DNA of 64,000 bases from Asanoa sp. WMMD1127 (GTDB lineage Bacteria; Actinomycetota; Actinomycetes; Mycobacteriales; Micromonosporaceae): assembly GCF_029626225.1 (NCBI RefSeq), contig NZ_JARUBP010000001.1, forward strand, positions 1,364,001 to 1,428,000. The letters are read 5' to 3'. The position numbers were made by a program, and so were the translations under genes. The first letter of the stretch is position 1; every line of letters starts with the position of its first letter. Under the pieces are notes generated by a model. The model was given only the letters and a program-made list of their open reading frames with translations. It did no database searches and was not told where the DNA came from. This document shows positions 2,413-58,572 of this stretch, piece by piece.

Positions 2413-3612
2413 ATGGACGCGCACGTGATCGTCGGAGCGGGTCTCGCCGGCGCCAAGACGGCACAGGCCCTGCGCGACGAGGGCTACACCGGCCCGCTCG
2501 TGTTGATCGGCGAGGAGCACGAACGCCCCTATGAACGACCCCCGCTGTCCAAGGGCTACCTGCTGGGCAAGGACGAGCGGGAGCAGATCTACGTTCACCC
2601 ACCACAGTGGTACGCCGAGCACGACGTCGACCTGCTCCTCGGCACCCGGGTCACCGCCCTCGACCCCGGCGCGCACCGGCTGACGCTCGCCGACGGCAGC
2701 CGGCTGGCGTACGCGAAGCTGCTGTTGACCACCGGCTCCTCGCCGCGCGTGCTGCCGGATGCGCCGGGAGTCCGCTATCTGCGGCGGGCCGAGGAGAGCG
2801 ACCGCCTGAAGGCCGACTTCGCGCCGGGCGCCCGGATCGTCGTCGTCGGCGGTGGCTGGATCGGCCTGGAGGCCGCCGCGGCCGCCCGCCTCGCCGGTGC
2901 GGACGTCACCGTCCTGGAGTCGGCGGACCTCCCGTTGCTGCGTGTGCTCGGCCCGGAGGTGGCCACGGTCTTCGCGGACCTGCACCGCGACCACGGCGTC
3001 CACCTGGTGACCGGCGCCCGGATAGCCGGTGTCGATGCGGACGGCGTGCGGCTCGCCGACGGCACCCGGATCGCCGCCGACGCGGTGCTGGTCGGCATCG
3101 GGGTCACCCCCAACACCGAGCTCGCGGCGGCCGCGGGGCTGACGGTCGACAACGGCATCGTCACCGACGAGCACCTGCGCGCTTCGGCCGCCGACGTCTA
3201 CGCGGCGGGTGACGTGGCCAACGCGTACCACCCGTTCCTGGGCCGGCGCATCCGCGTCGAGCACTGGGCCAACGCGCTCAACCAGCCGGTCGCGGCGGCG
3301 CGGTCGATGCTCGGGCAGGACGCCGCCTACGACCGGCTGCCCTACTTCTTCACCGACCAGTACGACCTGGGCATGGAATACACCGGCCACGTCGAGCCGG
3401 ACGGTTACGACCAGGTCGTCTTCCGCGGCGACACCAAGGCCGGCGAGTTCATCGCCTTCTGGTTGGCCGGCGGCCGGGTGCTGGCCGGCATGAACGTCAA
3501 CGTCTGGGACGTCACGGATCCCATCCAGCGGCTGATCCGCTCGCGGGCGGTGATCGATCCGGCCGAGCTGGCAGACCCGGACGTACCCCTGGATTCGCTC
3601 CTCAGCTCATGA
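2413..3612 (+). CDS. FAD-dependent NAD(P)H oxidoreductase (ferredoxin reductase type)
   Basis: A 399-residue flavoprotein of the BphA4/putidaredoxin-reductase type, which passes electrons from NAD(P)H through FAD to a ferredoxin. It shows an N-terminal FAD Rossmann motif (VIVGAGLAGAKTAQAL), the family motif RPPLSKGYL, a second dinucleotide fold (VVVGGGWIGLEAAAAA, about 137-152), the FAD-contacting segment DVYAAGDVA, and a C-terminal dimerisation/reductase domain. It begins 14 bp after folE and almost certainly shares its transcript. No ferredoxin or oxygenase gene lies beside it, so its electron acceptor is unknown; a link to pterin redox chemistry is speculative. Confidence 0.88.
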   Translation: MDAHVIVGAGLAGAKTAQALRDEGYTGPLVLIGEEHERPYERPPLSKGYLLGKDEREQIYVHPPQWYAEHDVDLLLGTRVTALDPGAHRLTLADGSRLAYAKLLLTTGSSPRVLPDAPGVRYLRRAEESDRLKADFAPGARIVVVGGGWIGLEAAAAARLAGADVTVLESADLPLLRVLGPEVATVFADLHRDHGVHLVTGARIAGVDADGVRLADGTRIAADAVLVGIGVTPNTELAAAAGLTVDNGIVTDEHLRASAADVYAAGDVANAYHPFLGRRIRVEHWANALNQPVAAARSMLGQDAAYDRLPYFFTDQYDLGMEYTGHVEPDGYDQVVFRGDTKAGEFIAFWLAGGRVLAGMNVNVWDVTDPIQRLIRSRAVIDPAELADPDVPLDSLLSS

Positions 3613-26150: not shown

Positions 26151-28727
26151 ATGACCACCGCGGTTGGGGCGCCGGCATCCGTGCTCGCCGGCCTGCTGAC
26201 CCGGCCGCCGGTCACGCATGTCGAAGAGGTGGCGGCCCGGGTCGGCGACACCGTGCCATGGCCGTCGTGGGTGCCACCCTCCGTGATCTCCGCGTACGCG
26301 GACCGGGGCGTTCCTTCGCCGTGGCGGCATCAGGCGGCGGCGGCGACGCTGGCGTTCGAGGGTCAGCACGTGGTGGTCGCGACGGGCACCGCTTCCGGGA
26401 AGTCGCTCGCCTATCAGCTGCCGGCGTTGTCCCGCCTGGTGCTCGATCCGCGGGCCACGGCGCTTTATCTCGCGCCGACCAAGGCGTTGGCCGCGGACCA
26501 GTTACGGTCCGTGGCCGCTTTGGACGTGGAGGGCGTACGCCCGGCGTGTTATGACGGCGACACGCCGCGAGCGGAACGGGAGTGGATCCGCCAGCACTCG
26601 CGTTTCGTCCTGACAAATCCCGACATGTTGCACCGCAGCATCCTGCCGGGGCATGCCGCCTGGGGCACCTTCCTGCGGCGGCTCGCGTTCGTGGTGGTCG
26701 ACGAGTGCCACACCTACCGGGGTGTGTTCGGCTCGCACGTCGCCCACGTGTTGCGGCGGCTGCGGCGGGCGGCGGCGCGCTACGGACGCAGCCCGGTGTT
26801 CGTGCTGGCGTCCGCGACGGCCGGTGACCCCGAGACGGCCGCGGCCCGGCTGACCGGGCTGCGGGTCGAGGCGGTGACCGAGGACGCGTCGCCGCGGGGT
26901 GGCGTGACGTTCGCGTTGTGGGAGCCGCCGCTGGAGTCGGCGTCCTCGTCGGCCACGGTGCGGCGGTCCGCTGTGCGGGAGACGGCGTCGTTGCTGACCG
27001 ACACGGTCGCCGCCGGGGTGCGGACCGTCGCGTTCGTCCGGTCGCGGCGCGGCGCGGAGACGGTGGCGACGGTGGCCCGGCGCTCGTTGGAGGAGATCTC
27101 ACCGTCGCTGGCCTCGCGGGTGGCGGCCTATCGGGCCGGCTACCTGCGCGAGGAGCGGCGGGCGCTGGAAGAGGGCTTGCTGTCCGGCTCGCTGCTCGGT
27201 CTGGCGTCGACCAACGCGCTGGAGTTGGGCGTCGACCTGGTCGGCCTCGACGCGGTGCTGATCTGCGGCTACCCCGGCACGCGGGCGTCGCTGTGGCAGC
27301 AGGCGGGCCGAGCGGGCCGCGCCGGCGGCGACGCGCTGGCCGTGCTGGTGGCCCGCGACGACCCGCTGGACACCTATCTCGTGCACCACCCGGAGGCGCT
27401 GTTCGGCCACCCGGTCGAGGCCACGGTCCTCGACCCGTCCAACCCCTATGTGCTGGGCCCCCAACTGTGCTGCGCGGCGGCCGAGGGCCCGCTGACCCAG
27501 GCTGATCTCTCGCTGTTCGGCCCGGCCGCGGCGCCGGTGCTGGAGGAGCTCGTGGCCGCCGGCCTGCTGCGCCGCCGCCCGTCGGGCTGGTATTGGCGTC
27601 CCTACAAGCGCCCCGAGGTCGACCTGCGCGGCAGCGGCGGCCAACCGATCTGCATCGTCGAGTCGGCCACCGGCCGGCTGTTGGGAATGACCGACGCGGG
27701 CTCGTCCCACTTCATGCTCCACGAGGGCGCGGTCTATCTGCACCAGGGCGCGTCTTTCGTCGTGGACTCCCTGGACTTCGACGACGGCTGCGCGCTGGTG
27801 CACGCGGACGAGCCGGACTACACGACCCACGCCCGCGACGTGACGACGCTGTCGGTGGCCGGGGTCGGTTCGTCGGTGCAGGCGGGCCCGGTCGAGATGC
27901 ACCTGGGCGAGGTCGACGTGACGAGCCAGGTGGTCTCCTACCAACGGCGCCGACTCGGCTCGGGCGAGGTGATCGACACTCGACCGCTGGACCTGCCGCC
28001 GCGCGAGCTGCGTACGGTCGCGGTCTGGTTCACGGTCTCCCCGACCGCCCTCGCCGCCTGCGGAGTGGCCGAAGCGGACATCCCGGGCGCCCTGCACGCA
28101 GCCGAACACGCGGCGATCGGCTTGCTGCCGCTGGTCGCGACCTGCGACCGCTGGGACATCGGCGGCATCTCGACGGCCGCACACCCGGACACCGGCCTAC
28201 CGACGGTCTTCGTCTACGACGGCCACCCGGGCGGCGCCGGCTTCGCGGAACGCGCCTACGCCGCCGCGTCGTCCTGGCTGCAGGCGACCCGCGACGTGAT
28301 CGCCGAATGCGCGTGCGAGGTCGGATGTCCGTCGTGCGTCCAGTCACCGAAGTGCGGCAACGGCAACAACCCACTGGCCAAGGCGGAAGCGGTCAAGCTC
28401 CTGGACGTGGTCCTGACCAACCTCGCAGCCGAGCACCCGCCGGTCGCGGAGGATCCTGGGGTGGCCTCCGCCGTCGATGGCGCGCTTGTAGCTCCGCCGA
28501 CGACCGACCGGCACCCGGATGCGGCTGCCGTTGCAGCGAACGCGGCGAAGGACGCGGGCGCTGAGCCGGCCGCGGTGAGCCCAGCCGGCAACGCTGGCTC
28601 CAAGCCTGCGGTCGCGGCTGGCGGGCCAGCCGGCAACGCCGGCTCCGGGCCCACGGTCGCGGCTGGCGGGCTAGGTCGCGTCTCTCGGATCATGGCCGGG
28701 TCCAGAGCAGGATTCCGGCCAAGGTAA
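26151..28727 (+). CDS. DEAD/DEAH-box helicase (DUF1998), tail truncated by an IS
   Basis: 858 residues as read now. RecA-like domain 1 has Walker A ATGTASGKS (77-85) and DECH (184-187); domain 2 has LASTNALELGVDL and QAGRAGRAG. A C-terminal DUF1998 region holds a four-cysteine cluster (CACEVGCPSC, then C in SPKCGNG; about 719-740). Family members (Rv3649, SCO3550) are 3'-5' DNA helicases linked to repair. At 28674 an IS5-family element enters the alanine/glycine repeat tail; the frame runs 18 codons into it and stops. All catalytic parts precede the insertion, so the protein may still work. Without the IS the protein would be about 1003 residues. Confidence 0.92.
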   Translation: MTTAVGAPASVLAGLLTRPPVTHVEEVAARVGDTVPWPSWVPPSVISAYADRGVPSPWRHQAAAATLAFEGQHVVVATGTASGKSLAYQLPALSRLVLDPRATALYLAPTKALAADQLRSVAALDVEGVRPACYDGDTPRAEREWIRQHSRFVLTNPDMLHRSILPGHAAWGTFLRRLAFVVVDECHTYRGVFGSHVAHVLRRLRRAAARYGRSPVFVLASATAGDPETAAARLTGLRVEAVTEDASPRGGVTFALWEPPLESASSSATVRRSAVRETASLLTDTVAAGVRTVAFVRSRRGAETVATVARRSLEEISPSLASRVAAYRAGYLREERRALEEGLLSGSLLGLASTNALELGVDLVGLDAVLICGYPGTRASLWQQAGRAGRAGGDALAVLVARDDPLDTYLVHHPEALFGHPVEATVLDPSNPYVLGPQLCCAAAEGPLTQADLSLFGPAAAPVLEELVAAGLLRRRPSGWYWRPYKRPEVDLRGSGGQPICIVESATGRLLGMTDAGSSHFMLHEGAVYLHQGASFVVDSLDFDDGCALVHADEPDYTTHARDVTTLSVAGVGSSVQAGPVEMHLGEVDVTSQVVSYQRRRLGSGEVIDTRPLDLPPRELRTVAVWFTVSPTALAACGVAEADIPGALHAAEHAAIGLLPLVATCDRWDIGGISTAAHPDTGLPTVFVYDGHPGGAGFAERAYAAASSWLQATRDVIAECACEVGCPSCVQSPKCGNGNNPLAKAEAVKLLDVVLTNLAAEHPPVAEDPGVASAVDGALVAPPTTDRHPDAAAVAANAAKDAGAEPAAVSPAGNAGSKPAVAAGGPAGNAGSGPTVAAGGLGRVSRIMAGSRAGFRPR
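28583..28672. repeat. 45-bp tandem repeat (two units before the IS)
   Basis: Two 45-bp units (28583-28627, 28628-28672) begin AGCCGGCAACGC and end GGCGGGCC/T, encoding 15 residues (AGNAGS, then GPTVAAGG). A third unit lies at 29597-29641 and a fourth partial one starts at 29642, beyond the insertion element. The IS therefore landed in a unit junction. Confidence 0.9.
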
Positions 28728-29558
28728 GCGCGGCCTGGTAGTGCACGGCGAGTTTGTCGGTGCGCATGGCCAGGCCGCGCCATTGTTTAAGCCGGTTGAT
28801 ACATCGCTCGGCCACGTTGCGTTGCCGGTACGCCTGCGGGTCGAAGGCCGGTGGGCGGCCGCCTCGGCTGCCCCGCCGCCGGCGGTGCGATTTTTGATCG
28901 TCCGGTTGCGGGATCGTCGCGGCGATGCCGCGCTGGCGCAGCCAGCCGCGGATGGCCCGTGACGAGTACGCCTTGTCGGCCAGCACCCGCATCGGGCGTT
29001 GGCGGGGTCGTCCAGGGCCCCGGCGGGGCACCGCGATGGCGTCCATGACGGCGGTGAACTGTGGTGCGTCACCGGCCTGCCCCGCGGTGACGAGCAGGCT
29101 CATCGGCCGGCACCCGGAATCGGCGGCGAGGTGGACCTTCGTGCTCAGACCGCCACGCGAGCGGCCGAGGCCGTGGTCGTCGGGCTCACCGACGCGTGGG
29201 TGTCTTTTCCCGGCCGTAGCCCGGCCGCGTGCTGGTGCGCACGCACGACGGTCGAGTCCACCGCGGCGACGAGCCAGTCCATCTCCCCGGCGGCGTCCGC
29301 GTCGGCCTGCACCGCCGTCAGCAACCGTTGCCACGTGCCGTCGAGAGTCCAGCGGCGAAACCGCGAGTACGCGCCTTTCCACGACCCGAACTCGGTCGGC
29401 AGGTCCCGCCACGGTGACCCGGTGCGGTATTTCCACGCGATCGCCTCGATCACCTCACGGTGATCCGCCCACCGGCCACCGCGCTGCGGCGACCGGTCCG
29501 GCAGATACGGCTCCAACCGCGCCCACATGTCATCAGTGATCCATCGACGAACCGGCAC
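28690..29558 (-). CDS. IS5-family transposase read by -1 frameshift
   Basis: The first frame (29558 to 29145) gives an N-terminal DUF4096-type domain (RRWITDDMWARLEPYLPD) and the first catalytic aspartate in VAAVDSTVVRAHQ. The second frame (open to 28690) gives the second aspartate in VLADKAYSSRAI and the Y-R-E-K signature in YRQRNVAERCINRLK. The frames join at a GGGAAAA heptamer; a -1 slip there makes one DDE transposase of about 289 residues. GTG start. No damage is visible, so the element may be active. Confidence 0.9.
29205..29211 (-). promoter_or_regulatory. Programmed -1 frameshift heptamer
   Basis: On the minus strand the sequence reads G GGA AAA (TTTTCCC on the plus strand), a canonical XXXYYYZ slippery site exactly where the two transposase frames overlap. 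A -1 slip turns GGA-AAA into GGG-AAA and continues as KRHPRVGEP. Confidence 0.8.
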
Positions 29559-41086: not shown

Positions 41087-43501
41087 GTGCGCAAAGTCGC
41101 AGTGGGGCTGCTTGGTCTGTCGCTGGCCGCGACGACCAGCTTCGCGCTGAGCGGTGCGGCGCTCGGCCAGTCGCCGTCGGCGGCGGCGAAGGCCCCCACG
41201 CTGTCCGAGCCGAACCTGGTCTCGGACGAGCTACCCAACCCGCTCGAGTCGAAGCGTCGCGAGCTTCGCGACAACGCGATTCAGGACGTCATCGCCGGCA
41301 AGACCACGCCGCAGATGGTCAACGGCAGCAAGGTCGTCAAGGTGGGCCAGCGTGACCTGAGCCGGGCCGCTCAGCAGCGCAGCGGCAAGGCCAAGGTCGA
41401 CCAGTACGTCGAACTGCAGCGGGAGAAGACCGACAAGATCTTCGTGGTCCTGGCGGAGTTCGGCAACGAGCGGCACCCGAGCTACCCCGATCAGGACACC
41501 GCGCCCAACGTCGCGGGTCCGACGACGTTCGAGGGTCCGCTGCACAACCAGATCCCGGCGCCGAACCGCGCTGTCGACAACTCCACTGTCTGGCAGCCGG
41601 ACTACAGCCAGGAGCACTACGAGAAGCTCTACTTCGGCACCGGCAAGAACGACGAGTCGCTCAAGCAGTACTACGAGAAGCAGTCCTCGGGCCGTTACAC
41701 CGTTGACGGTGTGGTGACCGACTGGGTCAAGGTGCCCTACAACGAGGCCCGCTACGGTCGCTCCAACGGCTACCCATGCGGTGGCAACGTCTGCTCCAAC
41801 ACCTGGGCGCTGATCCGCGACGCGGCCAACGCCTGGTACGCCGACCAGCTCGCCAAGGGCCGGCCAGCAGCCGAGGTGAACGCCGATCTGAAGAGCTTCG
41901 ACGAGTGGGACCGCTACGACCACGACGGCGACGGCAACTTCAACGAGTCAGACGGCTACATCGACCACTTCCAGATCGTCCACGCCGGCGGCGACCAGGC
42001 CGACGGTGACCCGCACCAGGGCGAGGACGCCATCTGGAGCCACCGCTGGGCGGCCTTCCAAGGCACCGGCGAGGGTCCGGCCGACTTCCCGATCGGTGGT
42101 GCGCAGATCGGCACCAGTGGCGTGTGGATCTACGACTACACGATCCAGCCGGAAAACGGTGGTCGCAGCGTCTTCTACCACGAGTACGCGCACGACCTGG
42201 GCCTGCCGGACGACTACGACTCGGCCGGCGACAACGCCAACGAGTACTGGACGTTGATGGCCCAGAGCCGGCTCGGCGCCAAGGGTGAGCCGTTCATCGG
42301 CGACCGCGGCGGCGACCTCGGCGCCTGGAACAAGCTGCAGCTCGGCTGGCTGGACTACCACGTTCTCCCGGCCGGTCAGAAGAAGACCATGGAGCTCGGC
42401 CCGGAGGAATACAACTCCGACAAGCCACAGGCGCTGGTCGTGCCGCTCGGCCTCAAGGACGTCAGCCACGAGGTGGGCGCCCCGGCCGACGGCAGCTACC
42501 AGTGGTGGAGCGGCGACGCGGACGACCTGACGAACTCGGCGGCGCACACGCTGACGCGTCAGGTCGCGCTGCCGGCCGGCACTTCCACGCTGACCTTCAA
42601 GGCCCGCTGGGACATCGAGGACTGCGGCCCGGACCCGTGCGACTACGCGTACGTCGAGGTCGACTCGGGCAACGGGGTGTGGACGCCGATCAAGGGCAAC
42701 ATCACCACGGCCACCGAGGCCGAGGGTGGCGCGGGCATCGACGGCATCCAGCAGAACTGGACGGACGCCGTGTTCGACCTGTCGGCGTTCGCCGGCAAGA
42801 CGATCGGCCTGCGGTTCCGTTACGAGACCGACCCGGCACAGCGCGGCAACGACACCCCGCTCGGCAACACGCTGCCCAACGGTCTCTTCGTCGACAAGGT
42901 GACGATCACCAACGGCGCTACCACGGTGTTCGCCGACGGTGACGCGGCCGGCAACATGGGCTGGACGGTGGACGGCTTCCAGAACATCCAGTCGTCGTTC
43001 ATCACCCAGCACCCGCACTACTACATCGCGGGTTGGCGGACGTACGTCAGCTTCGACAAGTACCTCCAGTACGGCCCGTACTACTTCAACCGGCCGACCG
43101 AGGACCGGGTCGACCACTTCCCGTACCAGACCGGTCTGCTGATCTCCTACTGGGACACCTCCCAGTCGGACAACCAGGTCAGCGACCACCCGGGTGAGGG
43201 CCTCAACCTGTACATCGACGCCCGTCCCGAAACCCTGTGGCGCCTCGACGGCCAGCCGTGGCGCACCCGGGTCCAGATCTACGACGCGCCGTTCAGCCTC
43301 CGCAAGGCCGACTCCTTCACCCTGCACCACGAGGACCAGGCCATGTACGTGCGCGGGCCGGCGGCCAACCCGCTCTTCGACGACACCGACGACTACTTCG
43401 ACGAGAACCTGCCGAACCACGGCGTCAAGCTGCCGGCAGTCGGAGTGAAGATCAAGGTGCTCGAGGAGAACGGCACCTCGGTCAAGATCAGGGTCTCCTG
43501 A
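41087..43501 (+). CDS. Secreted M6 metalloprotease (immune inhibitor A type)
   Basis: 804 residues. Signal peptide RKVAVGLLGLSLAATTSFALSG from the GTG at 41087, which follows a perfect GGAGGT. A prodomain leads to the M6 catalytic domain with zinc site HEYAHDLGLPD (His365, Glu366, His369, Asp375). A calcium-like DHDGDGNFNESDGYID lies before it. The C-terminal third is a jelly-roll/MAM-like domain (TLTFKARWDIE; GKTIGLRFRYETD), also found in the M14 protein of this window. It degrades extracellular protein. Single transcript with hairpins at both ends. Confidence 0.94.
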   Translation: MRKVAVGLLGLSLAATTSFALSGAALGQSPSAAAKAPTLSEPNLVSDELPNPLESKRRELRDNAIQDVIAGKTTPQMVNGSKVVKVGQRDLSRAAQQRSGKAKVDQYVELQREKTDKIFVVLAEFGNERHPSYPDQDTAPNVAGPTTFEGPLHNQIPAPNRAVDNSTVWQPDYSQEHYEKLYFGTGKNDESLKQYYEKQSSGRYTVDGVVTDWVKVPYNEARYGRSNGYPCGGNVCSNTWALIRDAANAWYADQLAKGRPAAEVNADLKSFDEWDRYDHDGDGNFNESDGYIDHFQIVHAGGDQADGDPHQGEDAIWSHRWAAFQGTGEGPADFPIGGAQIGTSGVWIYDYTIQPENGGRSVFYHEYAHDLGLPDDYDSAGDNANEYWTLMAQSRLGAKGEPFIGDRGGDLGAWNKLQLGWLDYHVLPAGQKKTMELGPEEYNSDKPQALVVPLGLKDVSHEVGAPADGSYQWWSGDADDLTNSAAHTLTRQVALPAGTSTLTFKARWDIEDCGPDPCDYAYVEVDSGNGVWTPIKGNITTATEAEGGAGIDGIQQNWTDAVFDLSAFAGKTIGLRFRYETDPAQRGNDTPLGNTLPNGLFVDKVTITNGATTVFADGDAAGNMGWTVDGFQNIQSSFITQHPHYYIAGWRTYVSFDKYLQYGPYYFNRPTEDRVDHFPYQTGLLISYWDTSQSDNQVSDHPGEGLNLYIDARPETLWRLDGQPWRTRVQIYDAPFSLRKADSFTLHHEDQAMYVRGPAANPLFDDTDDYFDENLPNHGVKLPAVGVKIKVLEENGTSVKIRVS

Positions 43502-48625: not shown

Positions 48626-48991
48626 CTAGGCGCGGTGTTCGCGGAGGTCGCTGACCTCGTTGGCCGGGGCCCAGCCCTGGTAGACGCCGAAGTCGAACGC
48701 TTCTAAGCCGAGCGCTTCGGCGATGGGGGCGCGACCGCCGGTGTATTCGACGCGCAGCCAGCCGTCGTGTTCGGCGAGGACGATGAACGGCTCGCCCTTC
48801 CACATGCACGTCGTGCGCACGTAGGCCAGCTCGTCGACCTCGGCGGTCGGGACGACGCGGACGTGCCGCCCGGCGCGTACCTCGGTGAAGCCGTCACCCG
48901 GATCCGGTTGGTAGATGCGGATTTCGTCGCCGGCGGGGCTGGCGTCGTATTCGCGACCCTGCCAGCGGGCCACGTAGCCGTCGCGCATCAT
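48626..48991 (-). CDS. Small unknown protein coupled to the giant SseB protein
   Basis: 121 residues, soluble, mixed alpha/beta, acidic overall. It has RDGYVARWQGREYDASP, RHVRVVPTAEVDEL, two aromatic/cysteine features (RTTCMWKGEPFIV) and a C-terminal FGVYQGWAPANEVSDL. I do not recognise a family. Its ATG overlaps the stop of the 1619-residue gene as ATGA (48991-48988), so the two proteins are made together. This size, position and coupling are what an immunity protein or dedicated chaperone of a secreted effector would show; neither is established. Confidence 0.75.
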   Translation of the reverse strand: MMRDGYVARWQGREYDASPAGDEIRIYQPDPGDGFTEVRAGRHVRVVPTAEVDELAYVRTTCMWKGEPFIVLAEHDGWLRVEYTGGRAPIAEALGLEAFDFGVYQGWAPANEVSDLREHRA

Positions 48992-51900
48992 TGGCCACCG
49001 CCGTCCCTGACCCAGCCCGGGGCGTCTGCGTCCAGGGTGGCGACGACCTGCTCGGTGCCGTCGGGGCGGATCAGCCAGAGCTGCGCCCCGTGGGGTAGTC
49101 GAGCACTGTCCACTTTGAACTCGGCGATGACGTCGCTGCCCTCGCCTGGCGCGAAGCCGTTGCCGCGGAAGGGTGCCCGCTCGATGACCCAACCCTCCAT
49201 GGCCCGCATGGCGTTCTCGTTCTGGCCGCCGTAGGGGATGCGGTAGAGGCTCGGCCGGTAGGCGGGCCAGCGCAGGACGTAGACCTCGGTGGCGTCGGCG
49301 CTGAAAGGGCTGTTGGCGTAACCGAGGCCGAGCGCGGTGAAGAGTTGGGCCGGGGTGCGCAGGTGCGCGACCTCGGTGGTGCGGTGCACGAAGCCCGAGA
49401 CCCGGTCGTAGCCCCGCTCCAGGTAGTAGTCGACCTGACTCGGCGCGATCGTCTTCTGCATCATCGTCGGCATTGCGGGGTCGACCGCCGGTGCCGCGGG
49501 CGCAGGGGCCGGGGCCTCTTGAGCGGGCTCGGCCGCGACCGCGGGCTCGTCGTCGCCGGCGCCGAGGCCGAACTCGGCGGCCCAACTCGCCAGCGCCACG
49601 ATCTGCGCGCCGGGCAGCTTGGCGCCGACGGGGGTGCCCGGGTTGACGGCGAACGACCAGTCTTCCTGCGGCCAACTGTTGATCAGCCTGACGAACTTGA
49701 CGGTGACGGTGTCCTGGCCCTTGTCGAGATGCTCGGCCATCCGCTCGGCGGACGTGAACACGACGACGTAGCGGTCGCCGTCGATCGTCTCGGTGCGCCA
49801 GACGAAGCCGTCGCTGCCGGGTTGCGCGCCCGCCTTGGACTCCGGCGAGACGGGGAGGAGCACCTTCGCGAGCAGCAATGTGGACAGGAAGGTGTCGGTG
49901 CTGCCCTCGCCGGCTGCGGTGAGCAGGCTTTCCTCGACGTCGTTGGCGGGTTGGAAGTCCGCCGGAACGGCGCCAGGGGTGAACACGGGCGCTTCCTGCT
50001 GCGGCGCGGGCTGGTCCAACCAGGACGGTGCGGCCGTGCCGGTGCTCGGGGTTGGGTCGATCCATCCGCCGGGCTGTGGGGTCGCGACCGGGTTCTCGGC
50101 GGTGCTCGCCGAGCTCTGGTGCCAGGCAGCTGGCTGGGTGGCCGGGCTCGCCGCCGTGGGCTGGCCCTCTTCGGCCCAGCGCTCCCCCGCTGTGGGGTTC
50201 GGGCTCGGGGCGCGGCCCTCCCACCGAGTTCCGGTGGGCTGCTGGTCCGGCGCTTGCGGCTGGCGGTTGGACCACAGGTCGGTGGCGTGTGATCCGGAAG
50301 CGATGGCGGCGGCCCGACCCTTGGCGGGCGCCGCTGCCGCGGGTTCGCTCGTCGTCGGTTTCTGTGCGGCCTCGGGTTGCGGCGTCGCGTCCGCGCTACC
50401 GGCCCGTAGTTCGTCGGCCGGGATGGCCTCACCTGGGTCTGACGGGGCGGCCGGCGGTTGCCCAGGAGAGTCGCTTCCGGCGGGCTTGCGCTCCGACCAC
50501 AGGTCGTCGACGGCGTTCGGCGTTGGGCGATCAGCGGGTCCGCCCGCAGTGCCGGCGGCCGGCGACCATAGGTTGACGGCAGCCGGATCCGTGGCGCTGG
50601 AGGTCAGCGGTGGCATGCGCTCGGACCACAGATCGGCACCGGAGTCCGGTTGAGCGGCACGCTCGGCCCCCGGCTCCCGCCCGGACCATAGGTCGGTCGC
50701 CCGCGGCGCCGCGCGATCCGCGCTGTCCTGCGCAGCGGCTGCCTGCCACAGGTCGACTCCCCCGTCGGAAGCCGGCCGGTCCTGCGTTGCTCTCGAGTCA
50801 GCGGGCCGCGAAGTCGAGCCCGCGTCAGCTGTGGCCCGGTCGATGGGCGAACCCAGCCCGCGCTCGGCCACCGGAGATTCAGCCGCGACGCTTGGGGGCC
50901 GCTCCGCCGCCAGGTCCGCGGCCCGAGGGTCTTCACCGTCGACGTTGCGCTGGCCAGACCACAGGTCTGTCGCGCGGGCCGTACCGGTGGCCCGCGTCTC
51001 CTCGGCTCCGGCCTTGCGCTCCGACCACAGATCGGTCGCGCGCGACTCCGGCTGGGTGGGCGCGGGTTCGTCGGACCTCGGTGCCGTCGGTGGCTGACCG
51101 GACCACAGATCGGTCGCCCGAGGGGTCGCCGGCGCGAGGGGCGTCTGACTCGGGCTCGGCGCTGCTGCCGCCTGGTCAGGTGTGGCCGAGGTAAGACCCG
51201 ACCCCGCTGCGGACGGCGTCAGACCTTGGCCCGGCGCAGACGGCGAGCCCGACCCGGAGAACAACAGCCCTTCAGTCCCGGTAGGCGAGATCGAGTCCGA
51301 GGGCGGGACAGACTGCGCCAAGCCCTGACCCGCCGCGGAGGCCGAGCCCTGACCCGCCGCGGACGCCGAACCCTGACTCGCCGCGCGCGGCGCTGAGCCC
51401 TGATCCGCCGCGTGCGGCGCCGAGCCCTGATCCGCCGCGTGCGGCGCCGAGCCCTGATCCGCCGCGGCCTGGCCCGTCGCGGACGGCGCCGAGCCCCGAT
51501 CCGCCGCGGCCTGGCCCGTTGCGGACGGCGCCGAGCCCTGATCCGCCGCGGCCTGACCCGTCGCGGACGGCGCCGAGCCCTGATCCGCCGCGGCCTGGCC
51601 CGTCGCGGGCGGCGCCGACGCCTGGCCAGCCGCGGGCGGCAGCGAGCCGGTGCCTTGGGAAGTCATGCGCGAATCCGCCGCAAGGGCATCGGCACCGAAC
51701 GTTCCGGACGGCCGCCGACCCGACCAGAGATCGGTCGCGCGCCCGCCGCCGGCATGCGTCGGCTCGGTCCCGCTGGGAGCAGCGGGCGTCCGACTGGCCC
51801 ATAGGTCTGTGGCCCGCCCACCTGGCTGCCCAGGCGAGCCTGCTTGGGCCCGCCGGGGCGCCGGGTCAGGGGCGCGCTCAGCGCCTGGACCCACCACGGA

Positions 51901-53847
51901 GCCTGACGCGGGCTGCCGGGCCCCGTCCGCGGCCTCAGCACCGCGATCGGTCCAGAACTGGGCTGCCGCAGACTCGGCAGCCGCCTGCTCACGGATCACC
52001 GGCTCCCTGGGGCTGGCCTGATCCGAACGCGACGCATCAGCCGCTCCCGGCCAACCTGACGTCGACGGCCCCGCGCCAAGATCCGACCACCGTTGGGCCG
52101 CAGCCGCCGAACGGTCGGGCCAGCCCTGGGCCGGGTCGATGCCTGTGCTGCTGCCAGAGGTATCAGCCTGATGCGCAGGCCAGCCTTGAGCCGATTCGGC
52201 GCCGGGACCGTCGGCCTGACGCGCAGGCCAACCCTGAGGGGCATCGGCGCCGAGACCGTCCCCTTGGCGTGGAGACCGACCCTGAGCCGAACCAGCGCCG
52301 GGACCCTCCGTCTGACGCGCCGGCCAACCCTGAGCCGAATCAGCGCCGAGACCGTCCCCTCGGCGTGCAGGCCGGCCCTGAGCCGAATCAGAGCCGAGAC
52401 CGTCCCCTTGGCGCGCAGGCCAGCCCTGAGCCGAATCAGAGCCGAGACCGTCCCCTTGGCGCGCAGGCCAGCCCCGAGCCGAATCAACGCCCGGACTGTC
52501 AACCTGGCGGGAGGGCCAGCCCTGCGCCGGCGCTCGGGGTGCGTCGGACGGCGGGACCGTCGGTGGGGCGGGCGCGGCCGCCGCCGGCCAGGCCGGTGCG
52601 GGGCGGGGCGGCAGCGGAGCGTCGGACCAACCCAAGCCGGAGTCGGCCCCGCCGGATACGGGCTGGGCCGGGGCGCCGGCACCGTTGGGCGTACCCGCCG
52701 ATGGTCCGGTTTCTCTCGGCACGCTGGCCGCAGCGCCGTTGGTGGGCGACCAGTTCGTCTGGCGCTGGTCGTCGGCGGGCGGCCGGCCGAAACGGCCGGC
52801 ACCGCGGCCGGGCTCGGGCTGGTCGCCGCCACCGAAGAAGCCCCCGCCCGAGGTGGGTCTGGCGAGGGGACGTGGGGGACGCGGTGGTGCGTCGCCGAGC
52901 CGCCCCGGCGGGTTGGAGCGGGCCGGGTCGTCGCGGAACGGCGACCTCGGCCGCATCGCCGGGGCTGGACGCTCGACGGGCTCCGGCGTCTGGTGGGGCG
53001 GCTGCGGATCGGGCGGCTGGTTGCCGCGAACGACCGGCGGCGGCCAGGCTGACGTCTCGTTGTTGGCCGCGGTCGCGGGCTGCCGGCCGTATCCGTTGTC
53101 GGCCGGCGCCTGCGGATAGGGCGTCGCGTCGGTGACCTGCGGCGGCGGGACCGGGCCGAACGGTGTCGGCGCGGGTGAAGCCGACTGGTTGTCGGCCGGC
53201 GGCACGCCACCGCGGCGCCGGGCCGAAGCGATGGGCGAGTCGTAGCCGGGCGGTCGCGCCGGGCGGTGCCGTTGCGGCGGTTCGATGCTGTCGGGTTCGA
53301 GGACCGGCCCGGTCGCCGCCGCGGCCCGGTCGACGAACGGCGGCTCGACGATCTCGCCTTGCACCACCTGCCCTGGCACGGACGCCCGCGCGCGGGCACG
53401 CGCGGCGGACTCCGCCCGGTCGAGGCGGGCGCGCGCGCCCATGGTGCGGCCGGGAAGGCGCACGTCGCCGCGGGCCAGCTGGGCCACGAACCAGGCCGGC
53501 AGGTAGCCCTCGATCGGTAGGCCCGGGTTGACCGCGAGCCACCATTCGAGGTTGGGCCAGGTCGAGGCCAGGTCGTGGTAGGGCATCTTCCGCGCCGACC
53601 CGGCGTTGTCGGCCAGGCAGATGCGCAGAGCGTCACCGGACGTGAAGGCGAGGACGTGCGTGCGGCCGTTGGTGGTCCAGGTGCCCCACCCGACCTGGGC
53701 GCGGCCGGCCAGGGCATCGGACGACACGGGCAGGAGAAGCTCGGACCGGGCCAGGATGCGGAAGTAGAGTTCCTGGTCTCCGGCCCGTAGCGCGTCTCGC
53801 ATCGCGGCCTCGACCTCGGTGGCCGGTTCCCAGTCGGTCACGGCCAC
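48988..53847 (-). CDS. Giant SseB-domain protein with disordered repeats, ESX island
   Basis: 1619 residues. An N-terminal SseB domain (about 8-140: ELYFRILARSELLLPVSSDA; EWWLAVNPGLPIEGYLPAWF) and a second SseB domain (about 1298-1430: FAVNPGTPVGAKLPGAQIV) flank more than 1100 residues of Ala/Pro/Gln/Ser-rich disorder. The disorder contains a 16-residue tandem repeat, a 14-residue repeat, and 11 copies of a DLW motif. The last 155 residues (from MMQKTIAP) form a separate folded domain with YYLERGYDRV, VLRWPAYRPSLYRIPYGG and GEGSDVIAEFKVD; I do not recognise it. No signal peptide. Beside esx genes and eccB, a type VII secreted effector or its large adaptor is plausible. GTG start. Confidence 0.8.
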   Translation of the reverse strand: MAVTDWEPATEVEAAMRDALRAGDQELYFRILARSELLLPVSSDALAGRAQVGWGTWTTNGRTHVLAFTSGDALRICLADNAGSARKMPYHDLASTWPNLEWWLAVNPGLPIEGYLPAWFVAQLARGDVRLPGRTMGARARLDRAESAARARARASVPGQVVQGEIVEPPFVDRAAAATGPVLEPDSIEPPQRHRPARPPGYDSPIASARRRGGVPPADNQSASPAPTPFGPVPPPQVTDATPYPQAPADNGYGRQPATAANNETSAWPPPVVRGNQPPDPQPPHQTPEPVERPAPAMRPRSPFRDDPARSNPPGRLGDAPPRPPRPLARPTSGGGFFGGGDQPEPGRGAGRFGRPPADDQRQTNWSPTNGAAASVPRETGPSAGTPNGAGAPAQPVSGGADSGLGWSDAPLPPRPAPAWPAAAAPAPPTVPPSDAPRAPAQGWPSRQVDSPGVDSARGWPARQGDGLGSDSAQGWPARQGDGLGSDSAQGRPARRGDGLGADSAQGWPARQTEGPGAGSAQGRSPRQGDGLGADAPQGWPARQADGPGAESAQGWPAHQADTSGSSTGIDPAQGWPDRSAAAAQRWSDLGAGPSTSGWPGAADASRSDQASPREPVIREQAAAESAAAQFWTDRGAEAADGARQPASGSVVGPGAERAPDPAPRRAQAGSPGQPGGRATDLWASRTPAAPSGTEPTHAGGGRATDLWSGRRPSGTFGADALAADSRMTSQGTGSLPPAAGQASAPPATGQAAADQGSAPSATGQAAADQGSAPSATGQAAADRGSAPSATGQAAADQGSAPHAADQGSAPHAADQGSAPRAASQGSASAAGQGSASAAGQGLAQSVPPSDSISPTGTEGLLFSGSGSPSAPGQGLTPSAAGSGLTSATPDQAAAAPSPSQTPLAPATPRATDLWSGQPPTAPRSDEPAPTQPESRATDLWSERKAGAEETRATGTARATDLWSGQRNVDGEDPRAADLAAERPPSVAAESPVAERGLGSPIDRATADAGSTSRPADSRATQDRPASDGGVDLWQAAAAQDSADRAAPRATDLWSGREPGAERAAQPDSGADLWSERMPPLTSSATDPAAVNLWSPAAGTAGGPADRPTPNAVDDLWSERKPAGSDSPGQPPAAPSDPGEAIPADELRAGSADATPQPEAAQKPTTSEPAAAAPAKGRAAAIASGSHATDLWSNRQPQAPDQQPTGTRWEGRAPSPNPTAGERWAEEGQPTAASPATQPAAWHQSSASTAENPVATPQPGGWIDPTPSTGTAAPSWLDQPAPQQEAPVFTPGAVPADFQPANDVEESLLTAAGEGSTDTFLSTLLLAKVLLPVSPESKAGAQPGSDGFVWRTETIDGDRYVVVFTSAERMAEHLDKGQDTVTVKFVRLINSWPQEDWSFAVNPGTPVGAKLPGAQIVALASWAAEFGLGAGDDEPAVAAEPAQEAPAPAPAAPAVDPAMPTMMQKTIAPSQVDYYLERGYDRVSGFVHRTTEVAHLRTPAQLFTALGLGYANSPFSADATEVYVLRWPAYRPSLYRIPYGGQNENAMRAMEGWVIERAPFRGNGFAPGEGSDVIAEFKVDSARLPHGAQLWLIRPDGTEQVVATLDADAPGWVRDGGGQ
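50274..51815 (-). repeat. Eleven dispersed DLW motifs
   Basis: Within the giant SseB protein, short motifs of the form RATDLWSxR recur at about 51800, 51720, 51099, 51023, 50961, 50745, 50687, 50627, 50571 (NLW), 50495 and 50274. The spacing is irregular (about 40-620 bp), so these are not slippage repeats but conserved linear motifs in disordered sequence, likely docking sites. Confidence 0.85.
51320..51640 (-). repeat. 42-bp tandem repeat, then shorter units
   Basis: About four copies of a 14-residue unit (ATGQAAADQGSAPS) followed downstream in the protein by three 8-residue units (HAADQGSAP type) and two QGSASAAG units. Confidence 0.85.
52110..52512 (-). repeat. 48-bp tandem repeat, about eight units
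   Basis: Units of 16 residues of the form RQGDGLGSDSAQGWPA, the last with a short insertion (DTSGSSTGIDPAQGWPD). Neighbouring units differ by a few bases, some pairs being nearly identical, so it is a recently expanded in-frame array. Confidence 0.88.
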
Positions 53848-54290
53848 CCCCTTCCCGGACAGGCCAGACGCATCGCGTACAACCTACAAGGTGTCGGCTA
53901 GATCACGATGTAGGGACGTCACGGGTGGTGTCACCGCGGCCGCCGTCGATACCGTCCGGAGTCGGACCCGCGGGTAGACCCGAAAGGTGCTCGACGACCG
54001 CCGGTTGCGCACCACGTCCCTTCGCGACCGTAGTCGCCGCCGCCTTCTCCCCCTGCCAATCGTCATCTTGCCAGTTGCCCTTGCATCCGTCACCGCCCGT
54101 CGACCGCACGGCCGGGACGCCCCCACCGCGCCGGCCGCCCCCGATCCGCTGGACCGCGACCGACACCGGCGTGACGGTAGCGGTAGTTGACCGTGGAGTG
54201 GACACGGATCACCCGTAACTCCGCGACCGGGTGACAATCGGCACGGACTTTCTGGACACCACTGACGCACGACCGGCGTACGCCGTCGTC
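53848..54290. other. 440-bp spacer in the ESX island
   Basis: Between the giant SseB gene and the esx pair. One short frame on the minus strand may be coding (see the next entry). I see no terminator with a T-run and no clear promoter; transcription of the SseB gene probably starts in here. Confidence 0.4.
53903..54205 (-). CDS. Possible small hypothetical protein
   Basis: A GTG-started frame of 100 residues, with glycine-rich and polar sequence (GKGNWQ-like tract CKGNWQDDDWQGEK; VVEHLSGLPAGPTP). No domain, membrane segment or good ribosome site is seen. It is on the same strand as, and between, the esx genes and the giant SseB gene, the only reason to list it. It may well be non-coding. Confidence 0.25.
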   Translation of the reverse strand: MSTPRSTTATVTPVSVAVQRIGGGRRGGGVPAVRSTGGDGCKGNWQDDDWQGEKAAATTVAKGRGAQPAVVEHLSGLPAGPTPDGIDGGRGDTTRDVPTS

Positions 54291-54595: not shown

Positions 54596-54913
54596 TTACA
54601 ACGGCAGCTGGATGCCGCGGCTGGTGGTGGCGATCCGGCTGGCCGCCTCGGTGTCGGTGGCCTCGTATTGCGTGCCGGCGCTGCGGATGGCGCCGGCCGT
54701 CTCGCGCAGGGCGCGCTGCATCGCCCCCTGGTCCTGCGACCACTGCTGCTTGACCTGCTCGAACGAGCGGCCGCCGGCGCCACGCCAGGCGGTCTGCAGG
54801 ACCGCGAGCTCGGCCATCAGACTCGTCAACATGCTCTGTAGCGACTGGTCGACCTGCTCGAACCTGGCCGCGGTCTGCTGCATCACCGCCGCCTGTGCCT
54901 GCGTCTGGGACAC
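54596..54913 (-). CDS. WXG100-family ESX protein (first of pair)
   Basis: 105 residues in a helical hairpin, turn TAWRGAGGRSFEQV (Trp43-Arg-Gly45). The helix before it is QSLQSMLTSLMAELAVLQ. The two WXG genes are adjacent in the usual order of an ESX heterodimer pair. GTG 54913. Its 5' region contains two DnaA-like boxes and it probably starts the esx-SseB transcript. Confidence 0.92.
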   Translation of the reverse strand: MSQTQAQAAVMQQTAARFEQVDQSLQSMLTSLMAELAVLQTAWRGAGGRSFEQVKQQWSQDQGAMQRALRETAGAIRSAGTQYEATDTEAASRIATTSRGIQLPL

Positions 54914-55045: not shown

Positions 55046-56389
55046 TCAAGCCGGCTCCCGTGCCCGGGCAGGATCGAGTGATGCACCCGACTCCACCAGC
55101 GCCACCATCGCCGCCGGCAGGCGCGCCGGTCGCACGCCGCCATAGCCCAGCATGGCCAGCGTCTCGGCACCGACGACCTCATGACGGCGGCCCAGGTCCG
55201 TGACGACGTTGACGGCTCCGTCGGTGGCGCCGGGCGACCCGACGGCCGTGACCACGGCAGCCCGTCCCGGCGGCACCACCACGTAGTCCGCCCCGGCACC
55301 GCGCCGCGATCTGGCGGCATCCGCGACATCGGGCACGTCGGCGTCGACGACGACGTTGGCGACACCGCGTTCGTCGCGCACGACCGCGCACAGGGCGCCG
55401 GTGAACGGACCGACCAACGAGGGGGTCGACGTGGGTACGGGTCCGTCAGGCGCCAAGGCCGCCGCCTTCCGGGTGGCCGCGAACCGGCCCTGGCTGAGGT
55501 CGGTCGGGCGGTCCTGGCGGTTGGCGGTCAGCAGCAGGTCGGCCTGGACCTGGGTGATGCTGGCGAGTCCGTTCCGCACGGCTACGGCGTACTGCCGATC
55601 GCCGCCCTGACTCGTCACGACGAACACCTCGCCAATGCGGGCCGCGGGCACTTCGGTGGACGGGTCGCCGGTGTCGAGGATGGGCGGCACGGTGATGTCT
55701 GCGCCGGCGGGTAGCGCGGAGAGGAACGCCGGGGCCGTGGGCAGCGGTTTCGCGGTCGTCCAGCCCAGGGCGGTCAGGGTGAGCCGCGGGTCGCGCAACA
55801 GATGGCGATGGTTCTGCCAGACGAGATGCAGGGAGCCGTCCGGATGTTCGGCCAGCACCGCGCGGTCCTCGAGCCGCGTGCCTCCGCTGCTCGCGGCGCC
55901 GACAAGCAGGGCAGAGGCCGCGCCGGGCAGGTTGCACACCGTCCATGGTGGACCGGTGACGCGGTTGGCCGCCGGCAGCGAGTCGGGCGCCTCGGTGATG
56001 CCCAACGTCGTGCCGCGTGGCACGCCCTCGATCGAGCGGCGGGAGACGAGCACCGTCTTGGGCTGCGCCGCGCCGACCGCGAGCAGTGCCGACGCGTAAT
56101 TGACCATGAGGTGCAGCTTGCCGTCGCGATAGACGTAGCGGGCCCCGGACTCGCGCTCGACGATCACCGCCGAGGTGTCGCGCCACGCGGTGCCGCCGCC
56201 GCCCACCAGCACGCCATAAACGACGAATCCGCCCAAGGCGATGGCCGCCACCAGCAATCCGGCCAACGTCGCACCGGCAGTCCGGCGAAAGGGTGGCTGT
56301 GCCGGGTCAGTCTCATGCATGACCAACGCGGAGACCACCCGCTGCACGGTGAACTGGTGCGACTGCAGCTGGTCCTGCCGCGACGGCAT
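55046..56389 (-). CDS. eccB: Type VII secretion protein EccB
   Basis: 447 residues, close to the family norm. A short cytoplasmic start (PSRQDQLQSHQFTVQRVVSALV) precedes a single membrane helix (TLAGLLVAAIALGGFVVYGVL, in part), and the large extracytoplasmic domain carries the EccB repeats and signature SRRSIEGVPRGTTLGITEAPDSLP, with a disulfide-forming pair around VCNLPG and ALCAVV. EccB is part of the ESX membrane core with EccC, EccD and EccE; C, D and mycosin are absent here. ATG 56389; same strand as the esx genes, divergent from eccE. Confidence 0.93.
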   Translation of the reverse strand: MPSRQDQLQSHQFTVQRVVSALVMHETDPAQPPFRRTAGATLAGLLVAAIALGGFVVYGVLVGGGGTAWRDTSAVIVERESGARYVYRDGKLHLMVNYASALLAVGAAQPKTVLVSRRSIEGVPRGTTLGITEAPDSLPAANRVTGPPWTVCNLPGAASALLVGAASSGGTRLEDRAVLAEHPDGSLHLVWQNHRHLLRDPRLTLTALGWTTAKPLPTAPAFLSALPAGADITVPPILDTGDPSTEVPAARIGEVFVVTSQGGDRQYAVAVRNGLASITQVQADLLLTANRQDRPTDLSQGRFAATRKAAALAPDGPVPTSTPSLVGPFTGALCAVVRDERGVANVVVDADVPDVADAARSRRGAGADYVVVPPGRAAVVTAVGSPGATDGAVNVVTDLGRRHEVVGAETLAMLGYGGVRPARLPAAMVALVESGASLDPARAREPA

Positions 56390-56466: not shown

Positions 56467-58572
56467 ATGACATCGACGATGGTGGACCCCTCCGGAAAGG
56501 TGGCACAGTCATCTCCACATTGGAGTCGCTTGCGCGTCGGCCAGGTCGTGGTCGCCCAGGCCGCGATGGCGGGCGTGCTCGCCACCCTTGACCGTGGTCC
56601 GCTGCTGCTCGGCACCGCTTGCGCGCTGGGCGCGGTGACGGTCGTGGCGGCTTTGGCCCGTGTACGCGGACGCTGGCTGTTCGTCTGGCTCGGCATCGGC
56701 CTCCGCTATGCGACCCGTCGCCGGCTGCTTCCCGCGCCTTCGGCTGACCGCGGCCTGATGCGTTTCGTCGCGCCCGACGTGGCATTGACCGACGACGGCG
56801 CCTTCGTCGACGCCGACGGTCTGCTCGTGGTGTTCGAGCTGGACGAGCCTGTCGTCGCCTCCGATCCGACCCAGCTGCCTGATCTGGGTGATCTATTGGT
56901 GGGTCACCGGGGGCCGCCGCGCGCGCGGATCGAGCTGCTGATCAGTGCTGAAGGTCAGGGCGCGGTGCCGGCACTACGACGGGTCTTCGTCGTGCTGCGC
57001 GTGAACGGTCCACCCGACTGGTCCGACGGAGACCTGCGTCCAACCTTGACCGGGTTGGCGCGACGCGTGGCCAGGCGGATCGGGCCGCACCATCGGCTCG
57101 ACCGTGAGAGCGCCCTGGCGACGGTGGCCGAGCTGCTTCGTCATGACGGCCGCCACGGGGTCGAGGAACGCTGGTCCTTCGTGGTTATCGGCGGGCTGCG
57201 CCAGGCGATCTATTGGTTGGCCGGGCACGAGTCGCAACACGCATGCGGGGTCGCGGCCCGGCTGCTCACCATCCCTGCCGCTGCGGTCGTTCTGGCCGTC
57301 AGTCACGACAGGCTCGTGGTGCGCCTCGCCTGCGAATCACCGGAGCGGCTCGAACACGCCGACAGGGCGCTTCACCAGTTGGCAGCGGCGGAGCAGCTAC
57401 GGGTGGAGCGACTCGACGGCGAGCATCTCGTGGCGACGACCCAGACTCTTCCTTTCAGTGGCCATTCAGGCTCGCTAGGCCTACCGAGCGGTCCGACAAT
57501 CGGGCTCGGCGGCACTGGGTCGGTGGGGTTCGGGTTCGTGGGTCGTGGATTGGCCAGGCACGGGCCGAGCGGACACGGACCAAGCGGACACGGACCAAGC
57601 GGACACGGACCAAGCGGGCACGGACCAAGCGGGCACGGCGCAGGCGGGCACGGCGCAGGCGGGCACGGCGCAGGCGGGGTCCGATCTGAGCGTCAGGCGG
57701 CTTCATCGTCGCCTTCTGACCGCCGGTCGAGGCCGAGCCCGCGACCCCGCCGGGCTCCGCCCGTGGAGTGGCTGCCGGAGGCGCCCGCACGGCCGCCGAG
57801 TGGGTTGCTCCCGCCCGCAGGGATGGTGCTCGGTCGGGACCGGCACGGATCCTGGGTGGTTGCTAGGGCGTTTCGGCCGGCCGGCACACGGATCCTGGTC
57901 GTTGGGGGGCTCGGGGCTGGGCAGCTGATCGCCCTGCGCGCGCTGGCGTCGGGCGCTCGGATCGACGTGCGCACGCGTCGGTGGGGCGCTTGGAACGAGC
58001 TCGCGCAGGCGATCGCCGCGCCGGTCGACAGCATGAGGGTGATACCCGACGCGGCGCCGGTCCATCGGTGGGTCACGGCCGGTGACCTGCCGAGGGCAGG
58101 GCGGCCTTCGCTCACGATCCTCGACATCGCAGCCGCGAAGGTGAGCACCCCGGCCGCGGTCAGTGCCGTCGGCACCGCGCTGCTCTCTCGGGAAGCGCCT
58201 CGCGCCACGGCGACCCGGCGGCATGTGCTCGAAGTTGGTCGTGAAGACCAGCCGAGCGAAGAACAAGCGGTGGGCGGGGGTGACGACGCCGCGCAGCGGG
58301 CGCGGTGGCAGACCGTGCTCACCTTGCGCGATGACGTGGTGGACGCCGACGCGGCGCTGCTGCGGGAGGCGGACGTGGTGGTGCTTCAGGCGCTACGGCC
58401 GGAGGGGGCGGCGGCCGCGGCGGCGTCGCTCGGGCTGGCGGACGGCTCCACCGGCTGGCTCAGCCAGATGCCCGACGACGTGATCGCGGTCGTCAGTAGC
58501 GGCCGGCTGCAATGGGCGAGGATGGGGGTGACGCCGGCGGAGCGGTTCGCGATGGGGATGCGCACCGAATGA
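56467..58572 (+). CDS. eccE: Type VII secretion protein EccE with extra C-terminal domain
   Basis: 701 residues, longer than the usual EccE (about 400-500). Two membrane helices near the N-terminus (VVVAQAAMAGVLATL; TACALGAVTVVAALAR) lead into the cytoplasmic EccE domain (about 85-330). A repeat of HGPSG/HGAGG (365-404) and a proline/arginine linker follow. The C-terminal 280 residues start DRHGSWVVARAFRPAGTRILVVGG and include a P-loop-like VVGGLGAGQLIAL without Lys, then a Rossmann-like run to the end. ATG 56467 after GGAGGGGAG. Divergent from eccB by 77 bp, so the pair shares a control region. Confidence 0.82.
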   Translation: MTSTMVDPSGKVAQSSPHWSRLRVGQVVVAQAAMAGVLATLDRGPLLLGTACALGAVTVVAALARVRGRWLFVWLGIGLRYATRRRLLPAPSADRGLMRFVAPDVALTDDGAFVDADGLLVVFELDEPVVASDPTQLPDLGDLLVGHRGPPRARIELLISAEGQGAVPALRRVFVVLRVNGPPDWSDGDLRPTLTGLARRVARRIGPHHRLDRESALATVAELLRHDGRHGVEERWSFVVIGGLRQAIYWLAGHESQHACGVAARLLTIPAAAVVLAVSHDRLVVRLACESPERLEHADRALHQLAAAEQLRVERLDGEHLVATTQTLPFSGHSGSLGLPSGPTIGLGGTGSVGFGFVGRGLARHGPSGHGPSGHGPSGHGPSGHGPSGHGAGGHGAGGHGAGGVRSERQAASSSPSDRRSRPSPRPRRAPPVEWLPEAPARPPSGLLPPAGMVLGRDRHGSWVVARAFRPAGTRILVVGGLGAGQLIALRALASGARIDVRTRRWGAWNELAQAIAAPVDSMRVIPDAAPVHRWVTAGDLPRAGRPSLTILDIAAAKVSTPAAVSAVGTALLSREAPRATATRRHVLEVGREDQPSEEQAVGGGDDAAQRARWQTVLTLRDDVVDADAALLREADVVVLQALRPEGAAAAAASLGLADGSTGWLSQMPDDVIAVVSSGRLQWARMGVTPAERFAMGMRTE
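57559..57678 (+). repeat. 15-bp tandem repeat in eccE
   Basis: Eight 15-bp units: five near CACGGACCAAGCGGA (HGPSG) and three near CACGGCGCAGGCGGG (HGAGG). In-frame array between the EccE domain and the C-terminal domain. Confidence 0.92.

Follow-up and report, generated by a model that had tools for sequence, protein, structure and literature searches.

The window analysed here is a stretch of 64,000 nucleotides from Asanoa sp. WMMD1127 (contig NZ_JARUBP010000001.1); Asanoa is a soil actinomycete and a member of the Micromonosporaceae. Our subject is a pair of genes within it, a large one (48988..53847, GTG start) encoding a protein of 1619 amino acids (aa) and a small one (48626..48991) encoding a partner of 121 aa. 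Both lie on the minus strand, as do the domains described next. The large protein runs from an N-terminal SseB domain (53497..53802; residues about 16–117) through a disordered linker (49963..53397; residues 151–1295) to a second SseB domain (49600..49926; residues 1309–1416) and a C-terminal domain (CTD; 48988..49470). Membership of the SseB family (PF07179) is clear at both ends, with scores of 30.4 and 54.2 bits against a Pfam cut-off of 21. The linker is recognized by its composition, 89.5% of its 1145 residues being disorder-promoting. The CTD is about 159 residues long (about 1461–1619). A preliminary description of this DNA had reported 1619 residues with SseB-like domains at both ends, more than 1100 disordered residues, a C-terminal domain resembling no known family and a 121-residue gene beginning on the stop codon as ATGA, all of which hold. 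A Pfam scan of the whole protein found SseB only, and no delivery domain of the WXG100, LXG or WXG100_2 kind.

The junction of the two genes reads CCAATGATGCG, in which the first ATG of the partner overlaps the TGA of the large gene by four bases and the second by one. The arrangement was followed in 80 named relatives, the best of 253 matches, of which at most 79 are independent because L097 and L099 come from the two mirrored ends of a single contig. The partner gene lies directly downstream of the CTD gene in all 80, and a candidate in-frame start codon overlaps the stop in 78. A four-base overlap uses GTG or TTG in 58 loci and ATG in 3, and a one-base overlap uses ATG in 44, some loci having two; ATGA exactly as in the window thus occurs in 3 of the 80. 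In the remaining two, the first candidate start lies 3 bases past the stop (L133) or about 145–165 bases past it (L150). With the CTD present in every one of 150 genomes sampled from the family, such constant adjacency is more than chance.

Taken as a separate stretch, the CTD has no match in Pfam or NCBIfam at E up to 1. Sequence searches of the PDB gave weak, unconvincing matches (the best, with E 0.0024 and 0.0052, to a photosystem I chain). Of the CTD profiles, one was built from the family only and another, A6, has 22 members and includes more distant proteins. Against Pfam at E up to 10, the 22 A6 members matched no family described as a toxin or an ADP-ribosyltransferase (ART); five families appeared, none of them in more than two members (best MoeA_N, E 0.0017). 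The partner gave SH3 matches below threshold (best E 0.0017, 18.5 bits, cut-off 25.8), and no Pfam or NCBIfam model exceeded its cut-off on the CTD or partner of any member scanned.

The predicted fold of the CTD is probably ART-like, and that of the partner appears to be all-beta and SH3/KOW-like, an assignment that is supported but not proven. The CTD carries the signature K - G - R[WF] - PFxGxG - PE, from which single members depart. Its Lys is present in 22 of 22 A6 members and its Glu in 21; in the Asanoa protein these are K6 and E117, numbered from 49470. Support, short of proof, exists for placing the Lys near the site of the NAD-binding strand-1 Arg of ART enzymes and the Glu near that of the catalytic Glu, an equivalence drawn from the ranges of structure alignments and from the residue numbers of known enzymes. 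Conservation in the CTD is among its highest at this putative active site, whose residues are invariant in 75 sequences.

Both families recur in other settings. The family-only CTD profile scores 32 bits in a protein of G378, a genome of the same class, 30 bits in one of G433 and 27.5 bits in one from Agathobacter rectalis; the A6 profile, which contains these three proteins, scores 126–136 bits in them. In G378, a 1210-aa WXG100_2 protein carries the CTD at its end, and its gene overlaps with a partner-like one (L207 7809-8240, found only by a profile already containing it), followed by an open reading frame (ORF) fusing a Glu-less CTD to a partner domain and by a PoNi immunity gene. Two WXG100 genes identified by Pfam lie upstream, as does one that appears FtsK/EccC-like by eye. 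The stretch L207 6983-8240 has the appearance of a polyimmunity locus. G433 encodes a proline-rich protein of 540 aa with the CTD at its end; two genes follow, with a 4-base overlap, and each of them encodes two partner domains. The Agathobacter plasmid carries a CTD-like gene surrounded by four partner-like genes, one of which begins three bases past the stop of the CTD-like gene; the fourth (2956-3270) was missed by the family-only partner profile and rests on other searches. Annotations there include WXG100, two Imm59 immunity proteins, EsaB/YukD and FHA proteins. Within the Micromonosporaceae, G086 and G070 have the CTD inside giant WXG100_2 proteins. Nonomuraea gerenzanensis, of another order, has a row consisting of a 296-aa SseB–CTD protein, the partner, a YbaB-like gene, a small gene without a Pfam match and a 3540-aa WXG100_2 protein. 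Gene boundaries outside the named loci come from a crude gene caller. The Agathobacter CTD had no phage match, and no relative was found in viral_contigs.

Fusion and proximity bind the two families further. The family-only partner profile gave 204 matches in 188 loci, which had themselves been selected for a CTD, and no match in reversed sequences; 203 of the matches lie within 3 kb of a CTD and the remaining one (L050:37-261) is 3.3 kb away. The Asanoa genome itself encodes a 436-aa ORF (L034 1090-2400; C1:2669631-2670938) in which a CTD (residues 148–296) precedes a partner domain (312–431). The genes beside it resemble metG and tatD; its N-terminal ~145 residues precede both domains. Strong matches to this fusion occur in 127 of the 150 family genomes; 148 match at E <= 0.001, including 21 weak matches (E 1e-9 or worse) that may be cross-hits to the SseB-linked CTD. 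An accidental adjacency of two unrelated genes is rejected by the unbroken order in the named loci, the proximity elsewhere and the fused copy.

The CTD and partner families travel together, adjacent or fused, in several actinobacteria and one Bacillota plasmid. The CTD is shared with other toxin-like proteins, as in type VII polymorphic toxins, and partner homologues adjoin toxin-like domains, as immunity families do; outside the Micromonosporaceae, the two families occupy the toxin and immunity gene positions of such systems, so that relatives of the partner are likely immunity proteins. Given that they co-occur, are fused in places and lie in toxin-like contexts, the CTD and its partner very probably belong to a type VII toxin–immunity lineage.

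Within the Micromonosporaceae, the pair behaves differently from a polymorphic toxin. The 150 genomes with the CTD represent 44 of 44 genera, and 148 of them match at E <= 1e-39; identity among the family matches listed is 45–93%. Among the best 80 of 253, the closest are Asanoa species (CTD 92–93% identical) and the others are Micromonospora, Plantactinospora, Phytohabitans, Actinoplanes, Paractinoplanes and Symbioplanes, all of the same family. In two samples of the phylum, 5/396 and 6/396 genomes had the CTD, counting the Asanoa genome and G003, figures that do not imply absence more widely as scoring was limited to nine candidates in each genome. Averaged over all pairs of 62 sequences, distances are 0.19 in the CTD, 0.22 in the partner, 0.17 in a neighbouring hydrolase, and 0.22 and 0.28 in the first and second SseB domains. 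Distances in the CTD and partner follow those of the hydrolase (r 0.94 and 0.92), and those of the first SseB domain correlate less with the CTD (0.69) and the partner (0.59). The correlation of 0.90 between CTD and partner is in itself no evidence of coevolution, as the genes share one history. Patchiness and diversification are thus not seen, and the pattern fits vertical inheritance under purifying selection. A variable toxin–immunity pair in this family is rejected by the universal presence of the CTD and by distances that track the hydrolase.

The two weakest matches, in G013 and G041, have lost the middle part of the CTD; there (L208/L069 and L209/L070), the SseB–SseB–CTD order and the partner gene are kept without the active-site-like segment. 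In G091, a 1415-residue frame (L060 6381-10625) has two tandem CTDs and no partner within a 20 kb stretch.

The surroundings of the pair belong in part to an ESX (type VII secretion) locus. Upstream of the large gene on the minus strand are two WXG100 proteins (PF06013; 54291..54584, 64.5 bits, and 54596..54913, 57.4 bits) and EccB (55046..56389; PF05108, 260.5 bits), with a divergent EccE-like gene on the plus strand (56467..58572; TIGR03923, 53.3 bits, below the cut-off of 108). Between the WXG100 pair and the large gene sits a plus-strand remnant of a mycosin gene (54033..54257), in a region that contains stop codons; it is 44% identical over 75 residues to a subtilase at the same place in Micromonospora lupini. 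The ‘ESX island’ of the preliminary description is in this sense upheld for the WXG100 pair, EccB and the EccE-like protein, whereas EccC and mycosins over the cut-off, three of each, lie elsewhere in the Asanoa genome (eccD was not searched for). Among 59 relatives' loci with enough flank, the WXG100 pair is upstream in 58, an EccE-like match is found in 57, a mycosin lies between the pair and the large gene in 41 and EccB is matched by tblastn in 7. An esxA–esxB–mycP cluster described in M. lupini Lupac 08 (PMC4182475, in the part available) may be the same locus, L123 being from that strain. Further away in the window are an immune inhibitor A type M6 metallopeptidase (41102-43501, plus strand) and two short minus-strand ORFs (28690-29528), presumably pieces of an IS5-type transposase.

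The linker of the large protein varies in length. Both protein ends are visible in 62 loci; leaving out L111 for a frame difference, the linker ranges from 87 to 1126 residues in 61 relatives, and both ends persist throughout. In the Asanoa protein, the part encoded by 50272..51807 (minus strand) holds 11 copies of a short motif, [D/N]LW, many of them as ATDLWS; 2000 shuffles gave a mean of 0.07 and a maximum of 2. Three other Asanoa loci have 12, 20 and 11 copies, and the other 58 loci have 0–2 each, so the array is restricted to the genus among the loci counted and the motif is rejected as part of a family mechanism.

How, then, is the pair to be understood? We give about an even chance to a type VII toxin–immunity module domesticated in the Micromonosporaceae, serving ESX as an adaptor or as a regulated enzyme on an SseB scaffold. 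The module would no longer be a weapon; it would be held in the cytosol on the SseB–linker–SseB scaffold, encoded beside the WXG100 pair and EccE/EccB. The overlap of stop and start suggests that the partner binds the CTD during synthesis. The likeliest role would be that of an ESX-linked adaptor, as proposed for EspK, with a long flexible rope between folded ends and a CTD–partner head that would be either a cargo binder or an NAD-consuming enzyme restrained by the partner. A domesticated, cytosolic module is suggested by the presence of the CTD throughout the sample, its even evolution and the lack of a delivery domain, as well as by a self-fused copy nearly as widespread and by two lineages that gave up the active-site-like region and kept the partner. 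Weighing on the other side is the conservation of the putative active site, which would speak for a working enzyme. A more specific version, decidedly tentative, is that an undescribed ART-like enzyme family and its small all-beta immunity protein, occurring across type VII systems of Actinomycetota and of at least one Bacillota, are now a fixed, active, NAD-dependent regulator of ESX in the Micromonosporaceae, the fused copy being a further, self-inhibited cellular regulator.

Next in our order of preference, and doubtful, stands a genuine type VII effector accompanied by its immunity protein, kept family-wide, in which the SseB domains and linker would do the work of a WXG/LXG delivery domain. 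The protein would be exported by the WXG100 pair and the ESX machinery, the CTD would consume NAD or ADP-ribosylate in the target, and the partner would protect the producer. The positions held by both families elsewhere are those of effector and immunity genes, the active-site-like residues are invariant, and the order of WXG100 pair, CTD protein and overlapping partner is that of G378. Against this, Pfam shows no WXG100 or LXG domain, the variation of CTD and partner tracks a neighbouring gene and is unlike that of a competition toxin, the L069 and L070 lineages retain the partner without the middle of the CTD, and the second, fused copy, nearly as widespread, is potentially self-neutralizing. 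The effector–immunity pair of the preliminary description accordingly survives in the toxin- and immunity-like look of the families elsewhere and not as a variable pair; its other suggestion, a large cytosolic adaptor, remains a possible one and enters into the reading that we prefer. Of the two outcomes it had set against its own proposal, an invariant domain came about in part, given the constancy of the CTD, and a small gene absent or separated in most relatives did not occur.

Least favoured, and unlikely, is a purely structural EspK-like adaptor with an ART-like domain devoid of enzyme activity, one folded end binding the ESX ATPase while the rope reaches out and the other end, with the partner, holds cargo: such a highly conserved putative active site is unexpected in a mere scaffold, the profile has no sequence match to EspK or Rv3899c chains, and neither was among the structure-search matches listed, an absence that proves nothing.

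These findings tie a family-wide ESX-locus protein of unknown function to a probable toxin–immunity lineage. Its toxin-like relatives and its fused, decayed and scaffolded copies offer a case for following the taming of a secreted toxin, and it is a candidate for a step of type VII secretion that depends on NAD in actinobacteria other than mycobacteria. The CTD and partner are also a putative toxin family and a putative immunity family on which, among the members scanned, no Pfam or NCBIfam model exceeded its cut-off. In the part of the literature covered on SseB, EspK/Rv3899c, type VII toxins, ART and domesticated toxins, no title or abstract opening dealt with this protein, and no paper on the pair was found.

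Several known systems invite comparison. CpnT/TNT of mycobacteria is an NAD-consuming type VII toxin that, with its immunity factor, is kept across species; no TNT family is among the Pfam matches of the CTD, and no channel domain was found. Tne2–Tni2 and TreX–TriX, toxin–immunity pairs of type VI and Rhs systems, belong to other secretion systems and have no sequence match to the present pair, and enzymes of the R-S-E type would have Arg where the CTD has Lys. A paper with SseB in Streptomyces (PMC13118837) contains neither ‘type VII’ nor ‘ESX’ in the part available. In the ESX-1 system of mycobacteria, EspB has EspK as its chaperone, and a rope model of EspK has been put forward (PMC9811218, in part). 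Like the 1619-aa protein, EspK is a large ESX-locus protein with folded ends and a long flexible linker, although the two have no detectable sequence relation, searches by profile and fold found no homology to EspK or Rv3899c among the matches listed, and the available part of that source mentions no ART-like domain or small partner. With type VII polymorphic toxins (Zhang et al. 2012, PMC3482391, in the part available), the pair shares a CTD common to actinobacterial WXG100_2 proteins, an overlapping downstream partner gene and, in other taxa, several partner genes in a row; it differs in having an SseB scaffold in place of WXG/LXG and in its family-wide, housekeeping-like evolution. It is not classed with them because two defining features, a delivery domain and patchiness, were looked for and not found. 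Toxins of type VII systems, toxins with an ART fold and chaperones like EspK are already known; what these results suggest as new is a toxin–immunity pair that has become part of ESX loci throughout a family.
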